The translations under genes and the position numbers were made by a program. A stretch of 64,000 nucleotides of DNA. It comes from Streptomyces sp. ERV7. GTDB lineage: Bacteria; Actinomycetota; Actinomycetes; Streptomycetales; Streptomycetaceae. Positions within the stretch are counted from its first letter, which is position 1; the number at the start of each line of letters is the position of its first letter. The notes under the pieces were generated by a model. It was not told the origin of the DNA. It searched no databases and worked only from the letters and a program-made list of their open reading frames with translations. Location: assembly GCF_001653515.1 (NCBI RefSeq), contig NZ_LYOY01000051.1:62001-126000 (forward strand), given 5' to 3'. This document shows, in pieces, positions 47,805-58,899 of the stretch.

Positions 47805-48638
47805 GTGGACAGAGAAGAACTCGCGGACTTCCTGCGGCACTGCCGGGCCCGTCTCGAACCGTCGGACGTCGGCCTCGCGGCCGGGCCCCGGCGCCGGACG
47901 GCCGGGCTGCGCAGGGAAGAGGTCGCCCAGCTCACCGGGATGTCGGTGGACTACTACACCCGGCTTGAGCAGGCCCGCGGCTCGCGCCCGTCCCGGCAGA
48001 TGCTGACCGCGCTGGCGCGGGCGCTGCGGCTCAGCCGGGACGGGCGCGATCACCTCTTCCACCTCGCGGGGGAGGAGCCCCCGCGCGAGCGGCACGGCTC
48101 GGTCCATGTGCGCCCGGGGCTGATGCTGATCCTCGACCGGCTGCACGACGCGCCCGCGCAGGTGATGAGCGACTGGGGCGAGGTGCTCGCCCAGAACGCG
48201 ATGGCGGCCGCGCTGGTCGGCGAGGCCGGTCCGGGCCGGAACATCATCCGCGGCTACTTCACCGAGCCGGTGCTGCGCCGGCTCTTCCCGCCCGAGGACC
48301 AGGCCGAGCACGCCCGCAGCCATGTGGCCCAGCTGCGGTCGGTGCTCGCGGCCCGCCCGGACGACCCGGAGCCGGCGGCGCTGGTGGCCGAACTGCGGGC
48401 GATCAGCGAGGAGTTCGCCGCGCTGTGGAACGAGCACGAGGTGGAGACGCGGCACGCCAAGGTGAAGCGGTTCCTCCACCCCGTGGTCGGCCTCCTGGAG
48501 CTGGACTGCGAGGTGCTGCTCAGCTCCGGCGAGGGCCAGTTCCTGGTGGTGCACTCGGCCCGCCCGGGCACGGAGTCCCACCAGCGCCTGGAACTGCTAC
48601 GGGTGGTGGGCCTCCAGGACCTGACGGTCAGCCGCTGA
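47805..48638 (+). CDS. MmyB-like helix-turn-helix transcriptional regulator
   Basis: 277-residue regulator: N-terminal XRE-type helix-turn-helix (RRTAGLRREEVAQLTGMSVDYYTRLEQ, about residues 27-55) and a C-terminal MmyB-like ligand-binding domain with PAS fold (VMSDWGEVLAQNAMAAALVG, FHPVVG-like segment RFLHPVVGLLELDCEVLL). Proteins of this group often regulate a divergent SDR gene and can bind fatty-acid-like ligands. GTG 47805 has gggga immediately upstream. Its stop codon lies in the first of three 15-bp tandem repeats. Confidence 0.9.
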   Translation: MDREELADFLRHCRARLEPSDVGLAAGPRRRTAGLRREEVAQLTGMSVDYYTRLEQARGSRPSRQMLTALARALRLSRDGRDHLFHLAGEEPPRERHGSVHVRPGLMLILDRLHDAPAQVMSDWGEVLAQNAMAAALVGEAGPGRNIIRGYFTEPVLRRLFPPEDQAEHARSHVAQLRSVLAARPDDPEPAALVAELRAISEEFAALWNEHEVETRHAKVKRFLHPVVGLLELDCEVLLSSGEGQFLVVHSARPGTESHQRLELLRVVGLQDLTVSR

Positions 48639-48680
48639 CCGATCGGCCCCTGACCGATCGGCCCCCTGACCGGTCGGGCC
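48635..48680 (+). repeat. 15-bp tandem repeats at the end of the MmyB-like gene
   Basis: ctgaccgatcggccc occurs at 48635-48649 and 48650-48664, with a diverged third copy at 48666-48680 (ctgaccggtcgggcc). The first copy contains the stop codon. Each holds a short palindrome (ccgatcgg or gaccggtc). The remaining bases to 48794 show no gene. Confidence 0.6.
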
Positions 48681-48794
48681 ACTCACTGGCCGGCCCCTGA
48701 CCGACGCCTCCCGGTCTCGATGGGGCCGGTGCACCGGCGCGCCCGCGCCGAGTGCCGCGAACCCCTGCGGCTGATCGGTGCCGTCCGCCTGCCT

Positions 48795-49568
48795 TCACGC
48801 GGCTGTGCGGGGGATCGGGCCGGGGTCCTCGACGCCCTTCGCGACCTCGCGCTTGACGCGCTGCCAGGCGAGCACCAGCGCCACCGGCAGGGTCACCGCC
48901 GCGCCGATGAGCGCCCCGTAGGCCGCTCCCTCGCCCGCGTAGTGGATGGCGAGGGCGGTCACCGTGCCCGAGGCGACGCCCGCCGCGATCATCTGCTTGA
49001 GCTTGCCCCGGTACATGCCGCTGAGGAACAGCTGCTTGGCGGGCGGTGCCACCAGCTCGTCGAGTCCGGCCGCGGGCCCGGCGCTCGCCGCCTTGGGGCG
49101 CTTGAAGTACATGAAGAACATCCACTGCCCGCACGGCTCCCAGCCGTCCGGGGCGAGCCCGGCCGTGACCGACTCGCGCTCGGCCGCGCTGTTGGCGCTC
49201 TCGCGGCGGTACTCCCACCGCATCGCCGCCGCCGGGTCGCGGCGGCAGACGAACCGGCCGACCCGGTCCAGGCCCTCGACCTCCCAGCCCTGGTCGCCGT
49301 AGTGGTTGAGGTGCTTGCGGTCGGTGTAGATGTCGGCGGTCCACTTCCAGGTCTCCGCCTCCGCGCCCGGCTCCTGCGCGGCCCGGCCCCCCGTGAGCCG
49401 GGCCGCGAAGTCCTCCGGCGCGCCGAACTCCTCGTACGGGTCGGCGGACCCCGACTCCGCCAGATAGCCGGTGAGCTCGGCGACGGTCGCCGCCACCTCG
49501 CTCTGCCGCATCCCACCGGCGCGCAGCTTCTCGGTGAGTGCCCCGAAGTAGTCGCTCTGCTCGCTCAT
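48795..49568 (-). CDS. Membrane protein with HAAS-like N-terminal domain, partner of a PadR regulator
   Basis: 257-residue protein. The N-terminal about 60 residues (YFGALTEKLRAGGMRQSEVA, then YEEFGAPEDFAARL) resemble the HAAS/DUF1700-type helical domain often encoded after PadR regulators. The middle has many aromatic residues (WEVEGLDRVGRFVCRRDPAAA, EPCGQWMFFMYFKRPK), resembling DUF2812. Two hydrophobic segments near the C-terminus (about 195-213 and 215-235) anchor it in the membrane. Its start overlaps the stop of the padR gene by 4 nt, so the two are coupled. Function unknown; likely a membrane sensor or stress protein controlled by the PadR protein. Confidence 0.72.
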   Translation of the reverse strand: MSEQSDYFGALTEKLRAGGMRQSEVAATVAELTGYLAESGSADPYEEFGAPEDFAARLTGGRAAQEPGAEAETWKWTADIYTDRKHLNHYGDQGWEVEGLDRVGRFVCRRDPAAAMRWEYRRESANSAAERESVTAGLAPDGWEPCGQWMFFMYFKRPKAASAGPAAGLDELVAPPAKQLFLSGMYRGKLKQMIAAGVASGTVTALAIHYAGEGAAYGALIGAAVTLPVALVLAWQRVKREVAKGVEDPGPIPRTAA

Positions 49569-49915
49569 GACGCTCGTCCCCCTGGTGTCGCGCTGGTCAG
49601 CATGGTCTGTACGGCGGTGTGGAACTCCAGCCAGGACGCGCCCTGTTCGGCGAGTGCCCGGTGGCCCTCCTCGGTCAGCCGGTAGTACCGGCGGCCCGGC
49701 CCGCGCTCGGCGGCGCGGAACTCCCCGACGGCGAGCCCGGCCTCTTCGAGCCGGTTCAGGACGGGATAGAGGGTCCCGCCCTTGATCTCTCCGAGCCCGG
49801 CCGTGGCCAGGGTCTTGGAGATCTCGTAGCCGTAGCTCTCACCCCCGGTGAGGCAGGAGAGAACGAGGAGGTCGAGGACGCCTTTGAGCCAACTGGATCT
49901 GCGGTCTGCGGCCAT
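49565..49915 (-). CDS. PadR family transcriptional regulator
   Basis: 116-residue winged-helix regulator with the PadR signature: LLVLSCLTGGESYGYEISKTL, IKGGTLYPVLNRLEEAGLAV (recognition helix region) and RRYYRLTEEGHRALAEQ with a long C-terminal dimerisation helix. It overlaps the following membrane-protein gene by 4 nt. attcc/ggaat elements (49922-49926 and 49940-49944) in the promoter form an imperfect dyad that may be its operator; this lies within the last codons of the upstream permease gene. Confidence 0.88.
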   Translation of the reverse strand: MAADRRSSWLKGVLDLLVLSCLTGGESYGYEISKTLATAGLGEIKGGTLYPVLNRLEEAGLAVGEFRAAERGPGRRYYRLTEEGHRALAEQGASWLEFHTAVQTMLTSATPGGRAS

Positions 49916-49934
49916 GCGTGTATTCCAGCACCAG

Positions 49935-51206
49935 CTAGATAGGAATGCAAACTAGGTGGTGGTGTTGGGGTAGGTGGCGGTGCTGAGTGGGGGCTTCGCG
50001 CGAGGGTGGGTGGTACCAGTACGCCCCGCCCCGAGAACGCCGGTTGAACACCTGGAGGGCGTCCGCGTCGTACACCCCGCGGCAGCGGACGAAGCCGATC
50101 AGGGTGATGACCGCCCACGGCGTGCCTATCGCCGTGAGGAGGAGCACGAACGACGTCATCGCCGCCTGCGCGTCCCACGCGTAGTGGCCCGCGAAGACAC
50201 ACACCGTCGCGACCGCCGCCACCGCGAACGTCGCCTGCGTACGCGACGCGCGCGGCAGGATCGCGTCCAGGTCCAGGCCCATGGAGTAGAGCATGAGGCC
50301 CGCGTTGCCCACCGAGCCCGCCGACGCCGCGAGGAGCAGCGGGACCAGGTACCAGCCGGGGGCCGCCGCCACCAGCGGGCCCGCGTAGTCCGCCGCCGCC
50401 CGCGTCGCGTACGCCGTGAACGTGCCGAACAGCTGCGGCACCAGGAGTCCGGCCGTCAGGCCCAGCCAGGTCGCGTGCAGTACGCGGCGAGGGGTGTGGC
50501 GGGCCGGGGAGATGTACCGCGTGTAGTCGCCCAGGAGCGTGATGAAGGCGATCGGGCCGCTCAGGCCCGCCGCCACCAGCGCCAGCAGCCACGTCGGCCA
50601 GAACGAGCCGAGCAGGTAGCCGCCCGCGTCCGGCAGCGCCGCCGTCGTGAAGTGCGGGGCGTACGCCGCCACGCCCAGGATCAGGAGTGCCGTCATCGCG
50701 ACCGCCAGGATCCGGGACAGCCGCAGCAGCACCCGGTACCCGTACACCGCGCCGATCACCGTCGCCGCCGCGAGCACCGCGTACACGATCCCGTACGAGA
50801 GTCCTCCCGTGGGCAGGCCGAAGAGCCGGTGCAGCACGCCCGTCATCGCGTCGCCGCCGATCCAGACGGTGAGCGCGGTGTAGCCGAGGGACAGCAGCAG
50901 ACCCACCACCGAGCCGACCAGCCGGCCCCGCACCCCGAACTGCGCTCCCGACGACGTCGACAGGTTCGTCGCGGTGCGCAGGGACACCAGTGCCAGCGGG
51001 GCCGTCAGCAGCGTGCCCACCAGGGTGCCCGCGACGACCGCGCTCACCGACGCCCACCAGCCGAGGCCGAAGGAGACCGGGAGCCAGCCGAAGACGATCA
51101 CGCCCAGACAGAGGTTGGAGCCCAGCAGGATCGACACCAGGTCGCGTGGGCCGCTGGTGCGTTCCGCCTCCGGGATCGTGTCGACTCCGCGCTGTTCGAT
51201 CTGCAT
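49935..51206 (-). CDS. NCS1 family permease (cytosine/purine/allantoin type)
   Basis: 423-residue membrane protein with about twelve hydrophobic segments. Segment LVSILLGSNLCLGVIVFGWLP (helix 1) and FGVRGRLVGSVVGLLLSLGYTALTVW match the NCS1 nucleobase-cation symporters. The C-terminal about 35 residues are Pro/His-rich and cytoplasmic. Family members import cytosine, purines, uracil, allantoin or hydantoins. The gene is divergent from ureAB-ureC with 146 nt between starts, which suggests import of a nitrogen-rich compound for the neighbouring urease-like and deiminase enzymes. Substrate unknown. Confidence 0.83.
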   Translation of the reverse strand: MQIEQRGVDTIPEAERTSGPRDLVSILLGSNLCLGVIVFGWLPVSFGLGWWASVSAVVAGTLVGTLLTAPLALVSLRTATNLSTSSGAQFGVRGRLVGSVVGLLLSLGYTALTVWIGGDAMTGVLHRLFGLPTGGLSYGIVYAVLAAATVIGAVYGYRVLLRLSRILAVAMTALLILGVAAYAPHFTTAALPDAGGYLLGSFWPTWLLALVAAGLSGPIAFITLLGDYTRYISPARHTPRRVLHATWLGLTAGLLVPQLFGTFTAYATRAAADYAGPLVAAAPGWYLVPLLLAASAGSVGNAGLMLYSMGLDLDAILPRASRTQATFAVAAVATVCVFAGHYAWDAQAAMTSFVLLLTAIGTPWAVITLIGFVRCRGVYDADALQVFNRRSRGGAYWYHPPSREAPTQHRHLPQHHHLVCIPI

Positions 51207-51320
51207 GGGCTGCCCCTGACGCTCGATGGCCTGATTTCGACGTTCCGGTAGTTTGAGTGGCGTTCAATGTGGGCTATGCGCGGCGGGCCCGTCAACCCCT
51301 TGTGTTGAGTGATTGTGCGG

Positions 51321-51337
51321 TTAGAGTGGTGCTCTAA
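51321..51337. promoter_or_regulatory. Inverted repeat in the permease-ureAB intergenic region
   Basis: ttagag/ctctaa with a 5-nt centre, 16 nt before the ureAB start. A related imperfect element, ttgagtggcgttcaa (51253-51267), lies earlier in the same gap, and ttgagtg recurs at 51305-51311. Together they suggest several sites for one regulator; possibly the TetR encoded at 54887 or a nitrogen regulator. Confidence 0.4.
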
Positions 51338-51352
51338 TCGGAGGTGTGGTGC

Positions 51353-52066
51353 GTGCGACTTACCCCTACAGAACGTGACCGGCTGCTGCTCTTCGGCGCC
51401 GCCGAGCTCGCCCGGGCCCGCCGGGCGCGCGGCCTGAGACTGAACGTCCCCGAGGCGACCGCGCTGATCGCGGACACCGTCTGCGAGGCGGCCCGCGACG
51501 GGCGCAGGCTCGCCGAGGCGATCGCGGCGGCCCGGAGCGTCCTCGGCCCCGACGACGTCCTGCCGGGGGTCGCGGACGTGGTCACCGAGGTGCACGTCGA
51601 GGCCGTCTTCGACGACGGTTCGCGGCTCGCCGTGGTCCCGGCGCCCATCTCGGACGCCGCCGGGCTCGGCCGGGACGCGCCCGGCGCCGTGCTGCCCGGC
51701 CCGCAGGGCCCTGAGCCGGAGCCCGCCGTCCGGCTCGCCGTACGCAACACCGCCGCCGTCCCCGTCAGCGTCACCTCGCACTTCCACTTCTTCGAGGCCA
51801 ACCCGCGCCTCGACTTCGACCGCGCCGCCGCGTACGGGATGCGGCTGTGCGTACCGGCCGGGTCCTCGGTCCGGTTCGACCCCGGCGGCGAGGGCGAGGT
51901 CGGGCTCGTACCGATCGGCGGCGCCCGTGTCGCCATCGGCTTCGCCGGACTCGTCGACGGGCCGCTGGACGCGCCCGGCGCCAAGGAAGAGGCCCTGCGC
52001 CGGGCCGCCGCCTGCGGCTACCTCGGCGTCGGTGAGGCCACCAGCCCCGAAGGAGGACCGGCATGA
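51353..52066 (+). CDS. Urease gamma/beta fusion subunit (divergent paralog)
   Basis: 237 residues. Residues 1-100 match urease gamma (RLTPTERDRLLLFGAAELAR, LNVPEATALIADTVCEAARDG, VLPGVADVVTEVHVEA); residues about 115-237 match urease beta (SVTSHFHFFEANPRLDFDRA, PAGSSVRFDPG). GTG 51353 has ggagg 8 nt upstream. The 3' end overlaps ureC by 4 nt. In urease these subunits scaffold the active-site alpha subunit. The beta part is divergent from the common sequence. No ureD, E, F or G genes occur nearby, so nickel loading, if it happens, must use proteins encoded elsewhere. Confidence 0.88.
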   Translation: MRLTPTERDRLLLFGAAELARARRARGLRLNVPEATALIADTVCEAARDGRRLAEAIAAARSVLGPDDVLPGVADVVTEVHVEAVFDDGSRLAVVPAPISDAAGLGRDAPGAVLPGPQGPEPEPAVRLAVRNTAAVPVSVTSHFHFFEANPRLDFDRAAAYGMRLCVPAGSSVRFDPGGEGEVGLVPIGGARVAIGFAGLVDGPLDAPGAKEEALRRAAACGYLGVGEATSPEGGPA

Positions 52067-53796
52067 GCAGGCCCAGCAGCCACAGCGACCACTGCGCGCC
52101 CGGCAGCCGGCACATCGACCCGGACGAGTACGCGGCCGTCTTCGGGCCCCGGGCCGGTGACCGGATCCGGCTGGGCGACTCCGGGCTCACCGTCCGGGTG
52201 GAGTCCGACGCCCAGCGGCCCGGCGACGAGTTCCTCGCCGGGTTCGGCAAGACCGCCCGCGACGGGCTGCACCTGAAGGCCGCCGCCGTCCGCGAGACCT
52301 GTGACGTCGTGATCAGCAACGTGGTCGTCATCGACGCGGTGCTCGGCATCCGCAAGGTGTCCATCGGCATCCGCGAGGGCCGTATCCACGCCATCGGGCG
52401 GGCCGGGAACCCGGACACCCTCGACGGGGTGGACGTCGTCGTCGGCACCGGGACCAGCATCGTCTCCGGCGAGGGGCTCATCGCCACCGCCGGCGCCGTG
52501 GACACCCACGTCCATCTGCTCTCGCCGCGCATCATGGAGGCCTCGCTCTCCTCCGGTGTCACCACGCTCATCGGCCAGGAGTTCGGGCCGGTGTGGGGCG
52601 TCGGAGTCAACTCGCCCTGGGCGCTGCGCAACGCCTTCGCGGCCTTCGACGCCTGGCCCGTCAACATCGGCTTCCTGGGCCGGGGTTCGTCCTCCGACGG
52701 CGCCCCGCTGGTGGAGGCGCTCGCCGAGGGCGGCGCCTGCGGCTTCAAGGTGCACGAGGACATGGGCGCGCACACCCGTGCCCTGGACACGGCCCTGCGG
52801 GTTGCCGAGGAGCACGACGTGCAGGTCGCCCTGCACAGCGACGGGCTGAACGAGTGCCTGTCGGTGGAGGACACCCTCAGAGTGCTCGACGGGCGGACCA
52901 TCCACGCCTTCCATATCGAGGGGTGCGGCGGCGGCCACGTACCGAACGTGCTGAAGATGGCGGGCGTGCCCAACGTCATCGGCTCGTCCACCAACCCGAC
53001 CCTGCCCTTCGGCCGGGACGCGGTCGCCGAGCACTACGGGATGATCGTCTCCGTACACGGCCTCAAGCCGGACCTGCCCGGCGACGCCGCCATGGCGCGC
53101 GACCGCATCCGGGCCGGGACGATGGGCGCCGAGGACGTGCTGCACGACCTGGGCGCGATCGGCATCACCTCCTCCGACGCCCAGGGCATGGGCCGCGCGG
53201 GCGAGACCGTGCGCCGCACCTTCGCCATGGCCGGGAAGATGAAGGCCGAGCTCGGGCCCCTGGAGGGCGACGGCGAGGGCGACGACAACGCGCGCGTGCT
53301 GCGCTACATCGCCAAGCTGACCATCAACCCGGCCCTCGCCCACGGCCTGGCGCACGAGATCGGCTCCATCGAGGTCGGCAAGCTGGCCGACATCGTGCTG
53401 TGGCGGCCCGCCTACTTCGGCGCCAAGCCGCAGATGGTGCTCAAGTCCGGATTCCCCGCGTGGGGCGTCACGGGCGACCCGAACGCGGCCACCGAGACCT
53501 GCGAACCGCTGGTCCTCGGCCCGCTCTTCGGCGCCCACGGCGCCACCCCCGCCGAGCTCTCCGTCGCCTTCGTGGCCCGCGCCGCCCTTGACCGGGGAAG
53601 CGATCTGATGCCGACCCGCAGGCGCCGGGTCGCCGTGCGCGGCACCCGGGGCATCGGCCCCGCCGACCTCGTCCTCAACTCCCGCACCGGAGCCGTGGAC
53701 GTGGACGGCCGCACCGGTCTGGTCACCCTCGACGGCGACCCGCTGCGCTCGGAACCCGCCGACTCCGTCTCCCTCAACCGCCTCTACTTCCTGTGA
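52063..53796 (+). CDS. Urease alpha subunit-like amidohydrolase (divergent paralog)
   Basis: 577-residue amidohydrolase aligned throughout with urease UreC. Metal ligands are kept: His149 and His151 (VDTHVHLL), carbamylated Lys229 and His231 (GFKVHEDMGA), His258 (ALHSDGLNE), His284 (IHAFHIEGCGGGH) and Asp372 (SSDAQGMG); the catalytic flap His is His332. The flap cysteine (Cys319 in Klebsiella) is Val331, and the following His is Gly. Residues 1-15 are an extra Ser/His-rich lead. It therefore probably binds two metals and hydrolyses a C-N bond, but differs at the flap. In S. coelicolor a second urease-type locus exists besides the main one, as I recall. It is coupled with ureAB and agmatine deiminase; substrate may be urea or a related amide. 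Confidence 0.87.
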   Translation: MSRPSSHSDHCAPGSRHIDPDEYAAVFGPRAGDRIRLGDSGLTVRVESDAQRPGDEFLAGFGKTARDGLHLKAAAVRETCDVVISNVVVIDAVLGIRKVSIGIREGRIHAIGRAGNPDTLDGVDVVVGTGTSIVSGEGLIATAGAVDTHVHLLSPRIMEASLSSGVTTLIGQEFGPVWGVGVNSPWALRNAFAAFDAWPVNIGFLGRGSSSDGAPLVEALAEGGACGFKVHEDMGAHTRALDTALRVAEEHDVQVALHSDGLNECLSVEDTLRVLDGRTIHAFHIEGCGGGHVPNVLKMAGVPNVIGSSTNPTLPFGRDAVAEHYGMIVSVHGLKPDLPGDAAMARDRIRAGTMGAEDVLHDLGAIGITSSDAQGMGRAGETVRRTFAMAGKMKAELGPLEGDGEGDDNARVLRYIAKLTINPALAHGLAHEIGSIEVGKLADIVLWRPAYFGAKPQMVLKSGFPAWGVTGDPNAATETCEPLVLGPLFGAHGATPAELSVAFVARAALDRGSDLMPTRRRRVAVRGTRGIGPADLVLNSRTGAVDVDGRTGLVTLDGDPLRSEPADSVSLNRLYFL

Positions 53797-53816
53797 GAAC
53801 CCCTGTGAGGACACCT

Positions 53817-54869
53817 GTGACGACCGCTGCCGCCGACGGCTTCCGGATGCCCCCCGAGTGGGCTCCGCACGAGCGCACCTGGATGGCGTGGCCCGGCCCC
53901 AACGTCACCTTCCCGAACGAGGGCGAGCTCGCCGAGTCGCGCGCGGCCTGGGCGTCCGTCGCCCGGACCGTACGCCGCTTCGAGCCGGTCACCGTCGTCT
54001 GCGGCCCCGGCCAGAGCGCCGGGGCGGCCGCCCTGCTCGGCCCGGACATCGACCTCGTGGAGCGCGAGCTCGACGACGCCTGGATGCGTGACATCGGCCC
54101 CACCTTCCTGACCAACGGCTCCGAACTGGCCGCCGTGGACTGGACGTTCAACGGCTGGGGCGCCCAGGACTGGGCCCGCTGGGAGCACGACGCCAAGATC
54201 GGCGCGTATGTCTCGGACCTGGCCGGGGCGCGTACGTACACCTCGCGCCTGGTCAACGAGGGCGGGGCGATCCACGTCGACGGCGAGGGCACGGTCCTGC
54301 TCACCGAGTCCGTGCAGCTGGGGCCGGAGCGCAACCCCGGCTGGACGCGCGAGCAGGTCGAGGCGGAGATCCACGGGAAGCTCGGCACCCGCAAGGCGAT
54401 CTGGCTGCCGCGCGGCCTGACCGCCGACTATCCCCCGCACGGCTACGGCACACTGGGCCACGTCGACATCGTCGCCGCCTTCGCCCGCCCCGGCGTGGTC
54501 GTCGCCCACACCCAGCCGGACCCCGCCCACCCCGACCACGAGGTGTGCAGGGAGAACGTGGCACTGCTGCGCGGCCAGACCGACGCCCGGGGCCGCACCA
54601 TCGAGGTCGTGGAGGTCCCCGCCCCGACCGTCCTCACCGACGACCACGGCTGGGTCGACTACTCGTATATCAACCACTACCTCTGCAACGGCGGCGTCGT
54701 CCTGTGCGGCTTCGACGACCCGAGGGACGAGAACGCGGCGGGCATCTTCCGCCGGCTGTTCCCGGAGCGGACCGTGACCCTCGTCGACGCACGTACGATC
54801 TTCGCGGGGGGCGGTGGCATCCACTGCATCACCCAGCAGCAGCCCAGGGTGGGATCCGCCCGGGTGTGA
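53817..54869 (+). CDS. aguA: Agmatine deiminase family protein (peptidylarginine deiminase-like)
   Basis: 350-residue pentein-fold enzyme. MPPEWAPHERTWMAWPGP opens the domain; DAWMRDIGPTFL, NEGGAIHVDGEGTVLLTESV and GTLGHVDIVAAF carry the acidic and His residues of the active site; the nucleophile is in GGGGIHCITQQQP (about Cys337). The characterised reaction is agmatine to N-carbamoylputrescine plus ammonia. Starts: GTG 53793 overlaps the ureC stop, but GTG 53817, with gagga before it, matches the family N-terminus and is preferred. It forms an apparent operon with ureAB-ureC and the following tetR gene. No N-carbamoylputrescine amidohydrolase gene is next to it. Confidence 0.88.
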   Translation: MTTAAADGFRMPPEWAPHERTWMAWPGPNVTFPNEGELAESRAAWASVARTVRRFEPVTVVCGPGQSAGAAALLGPDIDLVERELDDAWMRDIGPTFLTNGSELAAVDWTFNGWGAQDWARWEHDAKIGAYVSDLAGARTYTSRLVNEGGAIHVDGEGTVLLTESVQLGPERNPGWTREQVEAEIHGKLGTRKAIWLPRGLTADYPPHGYGTLGHVDIVAAFARPGVVVAHTQPDPAHPDHEVCRENVALLRGQTDARGRTIEVVEVPAPTVLTDDHGWVDYSYINHYLCNGGVVLCGFDDPRDENAAGIFRRLFPERTVTLVDARTIFAGGGGIHCITQQQPRVGSARV

Positions 54870-54886
54870 TCCAGGAGGCAGAGGAC

Positions 54887-55504
54887 ATGGCCGGTCCGGC
54901 CCGCGCGCGCAGGAACGCGCCGCCGCGCGAGGAGGTGCTGGCCGCCGCCATGGCCACCATCGCGGACGGCGGTCTGGACGGGCTGACCATGGCCGGGCTC
55001 GGCCGCGAGGTCGGAATGTCCAGCGGCCACCTCCTCTACTACTTCCGCAGCAAGGACGAGTTGCTCCTGGAAACCCTGGAGTGGAGCGAGGGCCGCCTCG
55101 GTGCCGAGCGCCGGGCCCTGCTCTCCCGGCCCGGCACGGTCCGTGAGCGGCTCGACGCCTATGTCGACCTGTACGTGCCGGACCGGGCCCGCGATCCGCA
55201 CTGGATCCTGTGGCTGGAGGTCTGGAACCGCTCGCAGAACGCCGACGGCGACGCCCGCGCCCGCCAGGCCGCCATCGAGGGCGCCTGGCACCGCGACCTG
55301 GTCGCGATCATCGCGGAGGGCGTCTCGCGCGGCGAGTTCCGCCCGGTCGACGCCGACCGTTTCGCGGCCCGGCTGCGGGCGCTGCTCGACGGCTTCAGCG
55401 TCCATGTGGCGGTCGGCATACCCGGCACCGGACGGCCCCAAGTCCTCGACCACGTGCGGGAGTTCGTGGACGAGTCACTGACGGAGCATCAGCCGGGGCG
55501 CTGA
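54887..55504 (+). CDS. TetR family transcriptional regulator (BetI-like C-terminus)
   Basis: 205-residue regulator. Helix-turn-helix at about residues 10-58 (AAMATIADGGLDGLTMAGL, then VGMSSGHLLYYFRSKDELLLE); the C-terminal part (LDAYVDLYVPDRARDPHWILWLEVWNRSQ) resembles the TetR_C_6/BetI-type domain. ggagg 9 nt before the ATG. It is the last gene of the ureAB-ureC-deiminase cluster and lies just before an MFS symporter gene, so it probably regulates the cluster. A small dyad, cgtac/gtacg (55522-55535), is found between it and the MFS gene. Confidence 0.87.
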   Translation: MAGPARARRNAPPREEVLAAAMATIADGGLDGLTMAGLGREVGMSSGHLLYYFRSKDELLLETLEWSEGRLGAERRALLSRPGTVRERLDAYVDLYVPDRARDPHWILWLEVWNRSQNADGDARARQAAIEGAWHRDLVAIIAEGVSRGEFRPVDADRFAARLRALLDGFSVHVAVGIPGTGRPQVLDHVREFVDESLTEHQPGR

Positions 55505-55521
55505 CCGGGCGCTGAACACAA

Positions 55522-55535
55522 CGTACGCAAGTACG
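55522..55535. promoter_or_regulatory. Small dyad upstream of MFS gene
   Basis: cgtac-gcaa-gtacg, 61-74 nt before the MFS start and within a 91-nt gap after the TetR gene. Possible operator of that TetR protein; weak. Confidence 0.3.
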
Positions 55536-55595
55536 CCTTATCGTTGCGTCCGCGACCCTTGTCGGCCGCATCGGCCTGGGCCACCGTGATCTTCC

Positions 55596-56975
55596 ATGGG
55601 ACGAGAGCAGTGGAAGAAGATCTGGGTCGGCTCGGCCGGCAACATGGTCGAGTGGTTCGACTGGTTCGTGTACGCCACCTTCGCGGTGTACTTCGCCGAC
55701 GCCTTCTTCCCGAAGGGGAACGAGACCGCGAACCTCATGAACACGATGGGGATCTTCGCCGTCGGCTTCTTCATGCGGCCGGTGGGCGGCTGGCTGCTCG
55801 GCCGCATCGGCGACCGCCGCGGCCGCAAGGCGGCGCTGACCCTGACCGTCACCCTGATGTCCGCCTCGGCGATCCTGATCGCGGTGGCGCCGACGTACGG
55901 CGTCGCCGGATACGGGGGAGTGGCTGTCCTGCTGGTCGCCCGCCTCCTCCAGGGCCTGTCGGTGGGCGGTGAGTACGCGGCCAGCGCCACCTATCTGACC
56001 GAGGCGTCCGCCCCCGAGCGGCGCGGCTTCGCCTCCAGCTTCCAGTACGTGTCGATGACCGCCGGCCAGCTCGTCGGCCTCGGCCTCCTGATCGTCCTGC
56101 AGCGCACGATGTCCGAGGACGCGCTGCACAGCTGGGGCTGGCGGATCCCCTTCGTCGTCGGCGCGCTGGGCGCGGCGATCGTGTTCTACCTCCGGCGCAA
56201 CATGCTGGAGACCGAGGTGTACGAGGAGTCCGGCGCGGCACGGGACGAGGACCGGGGCACGCTGAAGGCGCTGTGGCGGCACCGCAGGGAGGCGTTCCTC
56301 GTCATCGCGCTGACGATGGGCGGCACGGTCGCGTACTACACGTACACCACGTATCTGACGAAGTTCCTCTCCAAGAGCGCGGGCATGCCGAAGCCGACGG
56401 CCTCGCTGGTGTCGTTCTGCGCGCTGTTCGTCTTCATGTGCCTGCAGCCGCTGGCGGGCATGCTGTCGGACCGGATCGGCCGCCGTCCGCTGCTCATCAC
56501 GTTCGCGGTCGGCTCGACGTTCCTGACCGTGCCGATCATGACGATGCTGAAGCACGCGGGCACGTTCTGGCCGGCCTTCGGCCTGGCGCTGCTCGCCCTG
56601 GTGGTGGTGACGGGCTACACGTCCATCAACGCGTGTGTGAAGGCCGAGCTCTTCCCGACCGGCATCCGCGCCCTGGGAGTGGCCCTCCCGTACGCCATCG
56701 CCAACGCGCTGTTCGGCGGTACGGCGGAGTATGTGGCGCTCTGGTTCAAGAAGGGCGGCATGGAGTCGGGGTTCTACTGGTACGTGGCCGGGTGCGCGGC
56801 GGTGAGTCTGGTGGTGTACCTGACGATGAGGGAGACACGGGACATCGATCTGCAGCGGGTTGTGCCTGCGGGTACGGGTGCTGCCGGTGCTGGTTCGCCT
56901 TCCGCTTCTGCCCCCGCTGTGGTCAGTCGTTCCGCCGGGGCGGAGCCCCAGGGGAACGGGGTGCCCGCATCCTGA
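55596..56975 (+). CDS. MFS transporter, metabolite:proton symporter type
   Basis: 459-residue major facilitator with twelve hydrophobic segments. NMVEWFDWFVYATFAVYFA (helix 1), the A-motif GRIGDRRGRKAALTL between helices 2 and 3, and GLSVGGEYAASATYLTEASAPERRGF (helix 4 and loop) match the metabolite:H+ symporter subgroup of KgtP, ShiA and ProP. Such proteins import dicarboxylates, shikimate, betaine or similar small organic solutes. The C-terminal about 40 residues are Ala/Ser/Gly-rich. It may serve the neighbouring amine-catabolic cluster, but its substrate cannot be read from the sequence. Confidence 0.88.
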   Translation: MGREQWKKIWVGSAGNMVEWFDWFVYATFAVYFADAFFPKGNETANLMNTMGIFAVGFFMRPVGGWLLGRIGDRRGRKAALTLTVTLMSASAILIAVAPTYGVAGYGGVAVLLVARLLQGLSVGGEYAASATYLTEASAPERRGFASSFQYVSMTAGQLVGLGLLIVLQRTMSEDALHSWGWRIPFVVGALGAAIVFYLRRNMLETEVYEESGAARDEDRGTLKALWRHRREAFLVIALTMGGTVAYYTYTTYLTKFLSKSAGMPKPTASLVSFCALFVFMCLQPLAGMLSDRIGRRPLLITFAVGSTFLTVPIMTMLKHAGTFWPAFGLALLALVVVTGYTSINACVKAELFPTGIRALGVALPYAIANALFGGTAEYVALWFKKGGMESGFYWYVAGCAAVSLVVYLTMRETRDIDLQRVVPAGTGAAGAGSPSASAPAVVSRSAGAEPQGNGVPAS

Positions 56976-57019
56976 GATCCCGGTCCACCCCGTGGTGCCT
57001 CTGTGGCAGACTGACGACC

Positions 57020-57076
57020 GTGCTCGCTTTCATGATGATTATGGACAGCAGCGCGCCGGTCCGCAGTGACCGCTGA
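57020..57076 (+). CDS. Candidate cimA leader peptide (18 aa)
   Basis: Short frame MLAFMMIMDSSAPVRSDR (GTG start, or internal ATG 57032) placed before a terminator and the citramalate synthase gene. It contains Leu, Ile and Val codons and three Met codons. No strong ribosome-binding site is visible, which lowers confidence. By analogy with ilvB in this window it may sense amino acid supply; the unusual Met-Met-Ile-Met block could link to isoleucine or methionine. Confidence 0.5.
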   Translation: MLAFMMIMDSSAPVRSDR

Positions 57077-57127
57077 ACCCGCGGCAAACCCCCGCGGCAG
57101 CGGACATCGTGCCCCAGACCCGCGCGC

Positions 57128-57156
57128 AGACCCTTCGCACCCGCGAGGGGTCTTTT
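57128..57156 (+). terminator. Terminator between leader ORF and cimA (candidate attenuator)
   Basis: 11-bp stem (57128-57138 with 57143-57153, one G-T pair), loop accc, then four T residues and cgttt. It lies 102 nt before the cimA start and 51 nt after the leader stop. Because it precedes rather than follows a gene, transcription attenuation is likely. Confidence 0.75.
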
Positions 57157-57258
57157 CGTTTCCCGGCCCACCATGGCCGGACGCGAGCCGCACGCGATGA
57201 TGGGGGCAAGTGGAGCCAGAAAATCCGGAGCCACTCACCCGACAGGAGTCACACCAGC

Positions 57259-58899
57259 ATGACGGCCAACGAGGCACCTGAAGAGAGCCATCGCGTCGAT
57301 CGCGTCGATCGCGTCGACGATGGATTCCACGTCTTCGACACCACGCTGCGCGACGGCGCCCAGCGCGAGGGCATCAACCTCACCGTCGCGGACAAGCTGA
57401 CGATCGCCCGGCACCTGGACGACTTCGGGGTGGGCTTCATCGAGGGCGGCTGGCCCGGCGCCAACCCCCGCGACACGGAGTTCTTCGCCCGCGCCAAGCA
57501 GGAGATCACCTTCAGGAACGCCCAGCTGGTGGCGTTCGGGGCGACCCGCCGCCCGGGCGGCAGCGCGGCCACGGACCCGCAGGTCAAGGCACTGCTGGCG
57601 TCCGGCGCGCCGGTGATCACGCTGGTCGCCAAGTCCCACGACCGCCATGTCGAGCTCGCCCTGCGCACCACGCTGGACGAGAACCTGGAGATGGTCCGGG
57701 ACACGGTCTCCTATCTGCGGGAACAGGGCCGCCGCGTCTTCGTCGACTGCGAGCACTTCTTCGACGGGTACCGGGCCAACCCCGAGTACGCCAAGTCGGT
57801 GGTCCGGGCCGCGAGCGACTCCGGCGCCGACGTCGTCATCCTCTGCGACACCAACGGCGGCATGCTGCCCGCCCAGATCCAGGCCGTGGTGGCCACCGTA
57901 CTCGCCGACACCGGCGCCCGGCTCGGCATCCACGCCCAGGACGACACGGGCTGCGCGGTCGCCAACACCCTCGCGGCGGTCGACGCGGGCGCGACCCATG
58001 TGCAGTGCACGGCGAACGGCTACGGCGAGCGGGTCGGCAACGCCAACCTGTTCCCGGTGGTGGCGGCCCTGGAGCTGAAGTACGGCATGAAGGTGCTGCC
58101 CGAGGGCGCGCTGGCCGAGATGACCCGCATCTCGCACGCGATCGCCGAGGTGGTCAACCTGACCCCGTCGACGCACCAGCCGTACGTGGGTGTCTCCGCC
58201 TTCGCCCACAAGGCGGGACTGCACGCCTCGGCGATCAAGGTCGACCCGGACCTCTACCAGCACATCGACCCGGGCCTGGTCGGCAACCGCATCCGGATGC
58301 TGGTCTCGGACATGGCGGGCCGCGCCTCCATCGAGCTCAAGGGCAAGGAGCTCGGCGTCGAACTCGGCGACGACCGCGAGCTGGTCGGCCGTGTCGTCGC
58401 CCGGGTCAAGGAGCGGGAGCTCAAGGGCTACACGTACGAGGCGGCCGACGCGTCCTTCGAACTCCTCCTGCGCGCCGAGGCGGAGGGCCGGGCCCGCAAG
58501 TACTTCCGCATCGAGTCCTGGCGCGCCATCGTCGAGGACCGCCCCGACGGCACGCACGCCAACGAGGCGACGGTGAAGCTGTGGGCCAAGGGCGAGCGGA
58601 TCGTGGCGGTGGCGGAGGGCAACGGCCCGGTCAACGCGCTCGACCGCGCGCTGCGGGTCGGCCTGGAGCGCATCTACCCCCAGCTGGCCAAGCTGGAACT
58701 GGTCGACTACAAGGTCCGCATCCTGGAGGGCCGCCATGGCACGGACTCCACGACGCGGGTCCTGATCACGACGACGGACGGGTCGGGGGAGTGGGCGACG
58801 GTGGGGGTGGCGACGAACATCATCGGGGCGTCTTGGGGGGCGCTGGAGGATGCGTATACGTATGGGCTGCTGCGGGCTGGGGTGGAGCCGACGGAATAG
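57259..58899 (+). CDS. cimA: Citramalate synthase (2-isopropylmalate synthase-like)
   Basis: 546-residue enzyme of the LeuA-like family, TIGR00977 branch, predicted to condense pyruvate with acetyl-CoA to citramalate, an entry to isoleucine independent of threonine. The HMGL-like barrel carries FDTTLRDGAQREGINLTV (metal-binding Arg-Asp, about 28-45) and the metal His region SAFAHKAGLHASAIKV; the C-terminal LeuA dimer/regulatory domain (about 410-540) contains GRHGTDSTTRVLI. An N-terminal triple repeat (Arg-Val-Asp) comes from a 9-bp tandem repeat. ATG 57259 with acagga about 10 nt upstream. Preceded by a leader ORF and terminator. Confidence 0.9.
   Translation: MTANEAPEESHRVDRVDRVDDGFHVFDTTLRDGAQREGINLTVADKLTIARHLDDFGVGFIEGGWPGANPRDTEFFARAKQEITFRNAQLVAFGATRRPGGSAATDPQVKALLASGAPVITLVAKSHDRHVELALRTTLDENLEMVRDTVSYLREQGRRVFVDCEHFFDGYRANPEYAKSVVRAASDSGADVVILCDTNGGMLPAQIQAVVATVLADTGARLGIHAQDDTGCAVANTLAAVDAGATHVQCTANGYGERVGNANLFPVVAALELKYGMKVLPEGALAEMTRISHAIAEVVNLTPSTHQPYVGVSAFAHKAGLHASAIKVDPDLYQHIDPGLVGNRIRMLVSDMAGRASIELKGKELGVELGDDRELVGRVVARVKERELKGYTYEAADASFELLLRAEAEGRARKYFRIESWRAIVEDRPDGTHANEATVKLWAKGERIVAVAEGNGPVNALDRALRVGLERIYPQLAKLELVDYKVRILEGRHGTDSTTRVLITTTDGSGEWATVGVATNIIGASWGALEDAYTYGLLRAGVEPTE

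Follow-up and report, generated by a model that had tools for sequence, protein, structure and literature searches.

A divergent urease of Streptomyces sp. ERV7, consisting of the fused gamma/beta subunit UreAB and the alpha subunit UreC2, is encoded in a tightly joined cluster with an agmatine-deiminase-family enzyme, and UreC2 belongs to a clade of UreC that retains the metal site and has a changed pocket. Based on sequence comparison, we hypothesize, with close to an even chance of being right, that UreAB-UreC2 (UreABC2) may be a urease-derived metallohydrolase catalysing the second of two steps, the first being that of the co-translated deiminase. This enzyme would act on a guanidine compound (most likely agmatine), releasing ammonia and an N-carbamoyl product, a mono-substituted urea that is most likely N-carbamoylputrescine. 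UreABC2 would then split the ureido group of this product, yielding the amine (putrescine), CO2 and ammonia, a task performed by AguB elsewhere. In this model we infer the substrate, the reaction order, the metal and the import route of the UreABC2 system.

Table 1. Genes and predicted regulatory sites of the ureABC2 locus (positions in the window).
Feature	Position	Strand	Basis
NCS1-family permease (cytosine/purine/allantoin type), divergent	49935..51206	-	Pfam PF02133, 295.9 bits
Second operator-like palindrome TTTGAGTGGCGTTCAAT	51252..51268		69 bases upstream of the main site
Predicted TetR operator TTAGAGTGGTGCTCTAA, ureAB promoter region	51321..51337		Palindrome search, upstream comparison
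ureAB, fused urease gamma/beta subunits	51344..52066	+	Pfam PF00547, PF00699; NCBIfam NF009671 314 bits (cut-off 243)
ureC2, divergent urease alpha subunit	52063..53796	+	Pfam PF00449, PF01979; NF009686 749 bits (cut-off 354)
aguA-like, agmatine-deiminase-family enzyme	53793..54869	+	Pfam PF04371 359 bits; TIGR03380 298 bits (below cut-off 381.8)
TetR/BetI-type regulator	54887..55504	+	Pfam PF00440, PF13977
Metabolite:H+ symporter (MFS), optional member	55596..56975	+	TIGR00883/NF007710 family matches, below cut-off

Gene neighbourhood, regulation and the deiminase partner

All genes lie where a first-pass annotation of the window (the whole stretch of DNA analysed, 64,000 nucleotides) had placed them, and their families were verified by Pfam and NCBIfam models. 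The overlap of ureAB and ureC2 described there is real and comprises 4 bases (ATGA), and the cluster is joined more tightly than had been stated, as ureC2 and aguA also overlap by 4 bases (GTGA). The genes ureAB, ureC2 and aguA lead contiguously into tetR, which has an alternative GTG start at 54866, and a conserved palindrome precedes ureAB. Matches to this palindrome with up to two mismatches are found nowhere in the window beyond the intergenic region upstream of ureAB (mean expected by chance 0.20). A palindrome score of at least 11 out of 12 is reached in 73 of 76 distinct upstream stretches (76 of 79 loci), and shuffles reach 10 at most; the second palindrome recurs at similar spacing in many upstream stretches among those listed. 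The TetR regulator is predicted to pair with this palindromic operator, by which the Streptomyces operon would be controlled.

A deiminase gene is found near UreC2 in all 27 copies of a first sample (the window and 26 loci); in locus L066 the distance is about 1.1 kb. In the named scan it lies within 300 bases of UreC2 in 57 of 57 Streptomyces-type loci, 3 of which repeat loci of the first sample. tetR is present in 56 of these 57, the NCS1 permease in at least 38 and the MFS symporter gene in at least 20, both being lower bounds because some flanks are truncated. From the six genes that the first-pass annotation had grouped together, ureABC-aguA-tetR thus emerges as conserved in Streptomyces, and permease and symporter are not fixed members. 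The suggestion of a dedicated guanidine or carbamoyl route, rather than housekeeping urea use, gains from the constant deiminase in Streptomyces, the clade-wide rebuilt pocket and those clade members whose genomes yielded neither UreF nor full UreG (see below), and has to give up the notion of six genes as one fixed unit.

Among the more distant clade loci L113-L141, 12 of 29 contain a deiminase and 17 show none within the fetched stretch. In the other (non-Streptomyces-type) loci of the named scan, several of them short and 4 repeating L113-L141, no deiminase is found in 17 of 23. A genome-wide search retrieved no PF04371 protein in 7 of the 22 genomes with a UreC2-like protein as the only UreC; the UreC2 carrier G349 has none either. 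Three Streptomyces-type genomes (G005, G015, G036) hold aguA-tetR at the locus and lack ureABC there, so that the deiminase can do without UreC2.

UreC2 is accompanied by three separate deiminase lineages. The cut-off of the agmatine deiminase model TIGR03380 is passed by the enzymes of L121 (552 bits) and L119 (518 bits), near other UreC2-like genes. Of the seven other deiminases scored, the remaining five miss it, as does the window enzyme, which leaves room for a guanidine other than agmatine as the substrate. The window enzyme carries the catalytic Cys-His-Asp motifs of the PF04371 family (GGGIHC, GHVD and DDAWMRD), and its type has a motif set of its own, in common with homologues in Arthrobacter, Fuscovulum and Tsukamurella. 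The same two-step logic might hence apply to a different guanidine (e.g. 4-guanidinobutyrate, arcaine or a heterocycle-derived compound entering via the NCS1 permease), with UreABC2 acting on its ureido product. Besides the low AguA score and the separate motif set, this would be consistent with Arthrobacter, where NCS1, a TetR and the deiminase stand together and no urease is annotated in the 19-kb stretch, and with the deiminase-free UreC2 loci, which also allow a different ureide. However, in Tsukamurella a deiminase of the same motif type (64% identical to the one beside the UreC2 of L071, and adjoining a nitrilase-related gene) has genes for a primary-amine oxidase and for an aminobutyraldehyde dehydrogenase in its vicinity, as expected for putrescine, and a guanidine other than agmatine appears rather improbable to us.

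The UreC2 clade and its active-site pocket

UreC2 proteins form a well-supported clade whose members are 52-92% identical to the window protein, whereas ordinary UreC reaches 45-50% (8 ordinary rows aligned). A copy is present in 25 of 61 genomes scanned, and in 21 of 37 within the genus Streptomyces. Constraint on UreC2 is similar to that on the neighbouring cimA (pN/pS 0.18-0.21 versus 0.19-0.20, three within-genus pairs). The gamma, beta and alpha urease domains (PF00547, PF00699, PF00449, PF01979) are all over cut-off in the window proteins; UreC2 passes the wider subfamily model NF009686 and misses the urease equivalog TIGR01792 (649.3 bits, cut-off 680).

The window protein retains H149, H151, K229, H231, H258, H284, D372, H332 and R348. 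That all metal ligands are kept, as the earlier reading of the window had it, is also true for 65 of 65 clade members aligned, which keep the catalytic residues as well. V331-H332-G333 aligns with the classical C319-H320-H321 (Klebsiella numbering), in agreement with the earlier assignment of Val to the flap Cys position, a conserved flap His and Gly in place of the next His. Val at the flap, raised there as a possible clade marker, does not define the clade: members carry V, A, S, T or C at the position of Cys319, and D, G, A, S, R or Q at that of His321. The clade is marked instead by a new Trp (65 of 65 UreC2 versus none of 8 ordinary UreC), by a pocket loop of 10 residues (65 of 65) where 7 of 8 ordinary proteins have 14, and by the loss of Trp222 and the second flap His throughout the 65 sequences.

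In our preferred reading, the active site would keep the dinuclear centre of urease, built on a presumably carbamylated lysine, in rebuilt surroundings: a wall loop four residues shorter, the new Trp, and flap residues that are smaller or acidic. Such a pocket could have room for an alkyl-ammonium tail and hold it in place.

Accessory proteins and metal

As already noted in the first-pass annotation, the window contains no ureD, ureF or ureG; each has one match in the genome, on another contig (C1, the window being on C51), together with an ordinary second urease. The description of the system as accessory-less therefore fits the locus and not the cell. UreF and UreG were sought in 30 genomes, 22 with a UreC2-like protein as the only UreC and 8 with another UreC. 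Neither UreF nor a UreG over cut-off is found in any of the 22, and both are found in all 8; G338 has a UreG-like match (199.7 bits) at a contig edge. In some lineages UreABC2 would thus be assembled without UreF and UreG, in which case the metal may load spontaneously and need not be nickel. Three other genomes with UreC2 as sole UreC (G040, G045, G047) keep ureF, ureG and ureD away from UreC2 (UreG of G040 scoring below cut-off), which suggests nickel chaperone use there. These three genomes, together with the 7 of 22 that have no deiminase, are real counter-evidence to our preferred reading.

The chaperone genes of these three genomes and of the window's own genome would fit an ordinary second nickel urease, i.e. 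UreABC2 splitting urea after being matured in trans with the help of accessory proteins encoded at the main urease locus. The metal ligands, the flap His, Arg and Asp are all kept, and the flap Cys is not essential, so that its loss need not abolish urease activity. However, the 22 genomes with neither UreF nor full UreG, the missed TIGR01792 cut-off, the clade-wide pocket change and the deiminase found at every Streptomyces-type locus examined argue against this explanation, which we consider unlikely, although it could hold for this strain, whose genome has the accessory genes. We regard it as possible, though more doubtful than the two-step model itself, that UreABC2 represents a new enzyme class in the urease family, a hydrolase that needs no chaperones, might not use nickel and acts on N-carbamoylputrescine or a related ureido-polyamine, with a sister lineage recruited into non-ribosomal peptide gene clusters, where it would carry out a different reaction on ureido or carbamoyl groups.

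Relation to known systems and significance

The AguA-AguB agmatine pathway resembles the UreC2 loci in the deiminase family, the adjacent second hydrolase, and the polyamine transport or catabolism genes of some loci; the second enzyme of the UreC2 loci is urease-derived, whereas AguB is a nitrilase. In other genomes an AguB-like nitrilase can occupy the slot beside the deiminase: deiminases of the type that accompanies the second UreC2 copies of G004 and G012 adjoin a nitrilase in all five g3 genomes with a PF04371 match. Of the 29 loci L113-L141, 7 have PotABCD-like genes next to UreABC2 (family-checked in L115 and L127 only, with one PotA model over cut-off and PotD matches below). Kribbella catacumbae and a Mycolicibacterium MAG carry a deiminase and PotB/C/D-like genes divergent from UreAB-UreC2. 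AguB (TIGR03381, cut-off 410.25) is found in none of 52 genomes scanned, the best matches reaching about 265 bits, also in deiminase-free genomes. Nitrilases below the cut-off are present in all 52 and could already perform the N-carbamoylputrescine step, which counts against our preferred reading, as does the fact that NCS1 permeases are, to our knowledge, not polyamine carriers.

This context also bears on a guanidine-to-urea route, in which the deiminase would free urea from guanidine or a small guanidine compound and UreABC2 would be a specialised urease removing it. Deiminase and urease chemistry would link directly, and the three genomes with aguA-tetR but no ureABC at the locus carry an ordinary UreC elsewhere that could take over the urea. 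On the other hand, the polyamine transporter and amine-oxidase contexts, the AguA equivalogs in L119 and L121, the rebuilt pocket and the nitrilase as alternative partner speak for a different substrate, and the window has no Rfam hit that reaches the gathering score, i.e. no known guanidine riboswitch. Hence, we judge this route quite improbable.

Canonical nickel urease, UreABC with UreDEFG (EC 3.5.1.5), has its subunits, fold family, metal ligands, lysine, flap His, Arg and Asp in common with UreABC2. UreC2 differs by the shorter loop with its Trp and by the missing Trp222, second flap His and, mostly, flap Cys, and its loci differ by the lack of ureD, ureF and ureG nearby (in the window) and by the deiminase partner (in Streptomyces). 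Bacillus subtilis, with structural genes and no accessory genes, resembles the situation of UreC2 in some genomes; its urease is an ordinary urea-splitting enzyme, reportedly active without known accessory proteins according to the title of the original paper, and we know of no deiminase partner or rebuilt pocket there. The solved relatives include 3qga/3qgk ('Urease subunit beta 2'), presumably the iron urease UreA2B2. Like UreABC2 beside the ordinary urease in the window's genome, UreA2B2 of Helicobacter mustelae is a second paralogue; it acts on urea, and no deiminase link is known to us. Passages of published work describe very low urease activity in B. subtilis, whose genome has no accessory genes (PMC8600894), and a second, iron-containing paralogue using another metal in H. 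mustelae and relatives (PMC11541087). Likewise, an ure(AB)C-only cluster is mentioned for S. coelicolor and S. avermitilis (PMC2492869), and SCO5525-5526 are listed among urea-utilising genes, with SCO5527 as a homologue of the arginine decarboxylase pathway (PMC3293853); in the relevant passages of these two papers there is no mention of a substrate, of independence from accessory proteins, of an altered pocket or of a connection between ureABC and the deiminase. The window locus and SCO5525-5526 (with SCO5527) are probably orthologous.

Urease is the classic textbook example of a nickel enzyme, dependent on dedicated assembly proteins and with essentially one substrate. If UreABC2 is indeed a new enzyme class of this kind, it would exemplify a urease that has abandoned urea, and agmatine degradation would gain a further finishing route beside AguB and putrescine carbamoyltransferase. 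A widespread branch that keeps the metal site while UreF and full UreG are missing in many genomes, and that accompanies a deiminase in Streptomyces, would allow the need for chaperones to be addressed directly, as well as the questions which metal a urease site takes unaided and how a pocket made for urea can be adapted to a substituted urea. The annotation as urease in Streptomyces and other actinobacteria, which now implies urea use, would also be corrected, and polyamine nitrogen would gain a route.

Gene order and predicted operator at the window locus

The order of the genes agrees with the first-pass annotation: an NCS1 permease on the minus strand, the ureAB fusion, ureC, an agmatine-deiminase-family gene (aguA; PF04371), a TetR/BetI-type regulator and an MFS symporter, with a citramalate-synthase-like gene, presumably cimA, 3′ of the symporter. 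The joins are closer than described there, as ureAB and ureC overlap in ATGA, ureC and aguA overlap in GTGA, and tetR starts at the aguA stop codon or about 18 bases beyond. The genome has two UreC genes, one in the window, which is part of contig C51, and an ordinary copy on contig C1, which also carries ureF, ureG and ureD; hence the term "accessory-less" is apt for the cluster but not for the cell. The closest relatives of the window UreC in a scan of named organisms are mostly from Streptomyces. Coordinates of the features are collected in the table.

Coordinates of features at the window locus and at related loci
Feature	Location	Position (strand)	Remarks
NCS1 permease to MFS symporter	window	49935-56975	
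PadR regulator and DUF2812-like pair	window	48795-49915	downstream of the NCS1 gene; similar pairs also in fetched flanks of L051, L058 and L244, PadR-like gene only in L065
5_ureB_sRNA match	window	52389-52529 (-)	inside ureC2, antisense; 30.6 bits against a gathering score of 40
mir-648 match	window	48519-48598	
Ordinary urease genes of the same genome	contig C1 (L003)	645000-664000	ureC-ureF and ureG-ureD about 6.5 kb apart; phosphate-transport-like genes between them (named by reading translations); the split may be a rearrangement or an assembly join
Second PF04371 deiminase of the same genome	contig C40 (L249)	L249:8251-9408	secreted-lipoprotein-like start; adjoins TetR-like and amino-acid-permease-like genes (translation reading)
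Deiminase stretch beside UreC2, Thermoactinospora rubra	L230	L230:9653-10642	a single stop codon in frame within the aligned part

Immediately 5′ of ureAB is a 17-base palindrome, TTAGAGTGGTGCTCTAA, and a second such copy is found 69 bases further upstream; no other match with up to two mismatches occurs in the window beyond the ureAB/NCS1 intergenic region. Of 79 loci, 76 have a site with a score of 11 or 12 out of 12, corresponding to 73 of 76 distinct stretches with the window included, and shuffled sequences reach at most 10; as the window supplied the pattern, shuffling preserved base composition only and the loci are related rather than independent, the 73/76 figure displays conservation but does not establish TetR binding. 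Scores of 10 or 11 are reached ahead of ureAB in six loci of one group of relatives (f19) and in Thermoactinospora; another group (f3) and more distant loci have no site above 9.

At the gathering score, Rfam returned no guanidine or other riboswitch in the window, and a guanidine-to-urea route composed of the deiminase and UreABC2, whose reactions would join directly, appears quite improbable to us. Under laxer settings, 48500-57300 matched 5_ureB_sRNA and mir-648, both below threshold, the former probably reflecting just urease sequence similarity.

The UreC2 clade and its active site

Among 61 genomes, 25 carry this type of UreC, in 27 copies with 78-100% identity to the window protein, and the next match is at 50%. 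Across 394 genomes of the class the identity series is graded from 92% to 53%, and 57 genomes, not 58, are counted as members of this clade (termed UreC2, or UreABC2 together with the ureAB fusion): a tree places the protein of G340 (locus L142), which passed the E-value limit at 50% identity, among ordinary UreC, although on a long branch of unsure placement. This tree comprises 44 of 73 sequences, picked by hand and holding part of the 57 clade genomes, with "AguA" and "Pot" labels assigned by us from locus reading; it splits the clade from seven ordinary UreC with 100/100 support.

In all 65 aligned clade members, spanning 52-92% identity to the window UreC, the metal ligands H134, H136, K217, H219, H246, H272 and D360 are present, as are H320, R336, D221 and G277 (classical numbering). 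From sequence, fold membership of UreABC2 is clear. The same 65 proteins share a loop of 10 residues with a new Trp after the GP motif, and all of them miss Trp222 and the second flap His. The loop of eight ordinary UreC has 14 residues (n=7) or 11 (n=1), with E, D or a gap at the position of the new Trp. Gly replaces A363 in 62 of the 65 and in one of the eight ordinary rows. That UreABC2 is an ordinary second urease, for which the complete set of metal ligands speaks and against which the clade-wide changes of the pocket speak, is in our view unlikely.

The position of flap Cys319 holds V, A, S or T in 63 members and C in two. Val331 and Gly333, highlighted in the first-pass annotation, were read correctly in the window UreC, but are one state of a variable position, and a flap Val is ruled out as a clade marker. 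In three within-genus pairs, pN/pS of UreC2 (0.18-0.21) equals that of cimA (0.19-0.20), by which measure UreC2 is under purifying selection.

UreAB-UreC2 has a sister lineage, at 66-67% identity, which resides within a non-ribosomal peptide gene cluster on plasmids of Streptomyces anulatus, Embleya and Streptomyces sp. NBC_00637 (L077, L078, L082, L083). There it lies between the gene of a 528-aa protein that matches no Pfam family and a 2OG-Fe(II) oxygenase-like gene, and genes for APH-type kinases are close by; a fourth copy occurs in Kitasatospora. The UreC of this lineage has the Trp loop of UreC2, keeps A363 and reads V-H-R at the flap.

Maturation genes and deiminase partners

The class search supplied 30 genomes, in 22 of which the sole UreC is UreC2-like, and neither UreF nor UreG over the cut-off was found in any of these 22; sub-cut-off UreG matches occur in G338 (199.7 bits, at a contig end) and G077 (weak, 46). 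The eight genomes with a second UreC all have UreF and UreG. As completeness of the 22 genomes is 93-100%, missing contigs are unlikely to explain all 22 absences. On the other hand, G040, G045 and G047, where UreC2 is the only UreC, retain ureF, ureG and ureD elsewhere (UreG of G040 being below the cut-off, and reading frames inspected in G045 only), in fetched stretches with no UreC or UreAB homologue. UreC2 may therefore mature without chaperones in certain lineages and with their help in others. G044, also a carrier of UreC2, has a second ureF-ureG-ureD set without adjacent UreC (L072-L075 cover these four genomes).

The deiminase is present in all 26 fetched loci of the first sample and in the window, and in the genus sample a PF04371 protein occurs in 21/21 genomes with UreC2 versus 4/16 without. 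The scan of named organisms kept 80 loci, of which 57 with UreC2 more than 85% identical were tabulated jointly and 23 were read singly; seven of the 80, three of them among the 57, repeat loci fetched earlier. Its count of 588 relatives is not used because one of two search patterns also fits ordinary ureases, which the count may include. All 57 loci have a deiminase within 300 bases, and 56 have TetR; flanks being partly cut, cimA is found in at least 50, NCS1 in at least 38 and MFS in at least 20 of them. G005, G015 and G036 hold aguA-tetR-cimA at the syntenic place without ureABC (MFS in two, NCS1 in one), and the operator still precedes aguA in the two of these loci inspected. Dependence of UreC2 on the deiminase is one-way in the Streptomyces-type group. 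A six-gene module does not hold as such, with NCS1 and MFS being optional and ureABC itself missing at three syntenic loci.

The link loosens with distance from the Streptomyces type: among 29 more distant clade loci (L113-L141), 12 have a deiminase in the fetched stretch, as do 6 of the 23 loci read singly (some stretches short; four repeats), and 7 of the 22 genomes with UreC2 as sole UreC have no deiminase of the PF04371 family. Further deiminase-family genes were seen in L052 (three) and L066 (one).

In a tree of 30 deiminases the UreC2 partners fall in three separate lineages. One is agmatine deiminase by curated score (L121, 552 bits; L119, 518 bits; cut-off 381.8), its genes lying near a UreC2-like gene on the opposite strand, two genes apart in L121. 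In the other two, a close relative adjoins an AguB-like nitrilase instead. Such a nitrilase is beside the deiminase in all five genomes of group g3 with a PF04371 match (L238-L242), none of which has UreC2, and in Tsukamurella, with a primary-amine oxidase and an aminobutyraldehyde dehydrogenase nearby; against the AguB model the Tsukamurella nitrilase scores 186 bits, below the cut-off of 410, and among the matches listed AguB exceeds its cut-off in 0 of 52 genomes. Since each adjoins related deiminases, nitrilase and UreABC2 seem to replace each other.

Proposed substrate of UreABC2 and prior record

PotABCD-like genes accompany UreABC2 in 7 of the 29 distant loci, in differing order (PotC not called in L131). 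In L115, PotA is over the cut-off of one family model and the PotD-like protein below, the latter as in L127; a flavin amine oxidase, a class III aminotransferase and an aldehyde dehydrogenase nearest succinate-semialdehyde types are also found in L115. In Kribbella catacumbae (L204) and a Mycolicibacterium MAG (L188), UreAB-UreC2 is arranged divergently from a series of genes for a deiminase, an ABC-ATPase-like protein (by translation reading only) and PotD-like and PotBC-like proteins. Both the transport and the oxidation genes are indicative of polyamines.

Twelve of the 29 loci also have a YtcJ-like amidohydrolase (PF07969) alongside UreABC2. In L127 (G385) and L128 (G424), genomes of 1.6-1.8 Mb without PF04371 deiminase, UreABC2 belongs to an extended gene series that also includes diol-dehydratase, formamidase-like, C45 acyltransferase-like, FAD-oxidase and PotABCD-like genes, the families having been verified for L127 alone.

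The deiminase product would be a mono-substituted urea, a group which a urease-type centre could hydrolyse, provided that the pocket admits it. Based on this chemistry, the clade-wide pocket change, the AguB-like nitrilase in the partner slot elsewhere and the transport and oxidation genes, our tentative candidate for the substrate is N-carbamoylputrescine or a closely related compound, at nearly even chances. The NCS1 permease does not suggest polyamines, and like the genomes with UreC2 as sole UreC but no deiminase it is left unexplained by this reading; another ureido substrate is rather improbable.

Streptomyces coelicolor SCO5525-5526 is described as a second ure(AB)C (PMC2492869) and counted among urea-utilising genes (PMC3293853), and SCO5527 is listed as an agmatine-pathway-type homologue (PMC3293853); these are likely orthologues of the window genes. 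In PMC2492869 the Streptomyces ure(AB)C is grouped with ureEF(AB)CGD ureases of Proteobacteria, namely P. syringae PSYR2197 and Bradyrhizobium BTAi1. SCO5526 in PMC4991794 denotes a different operon and was set aside. Among the titles and abstract beginnings listed from the open-licence PMC literature, outside which most subscription papers lie, none joins SCO5525-5526 with SCO5527 or gives a function. UreABC2 remains within the urease superfamily; if both the proposed substrate and chaperone independence are true, it would represent a new activity.
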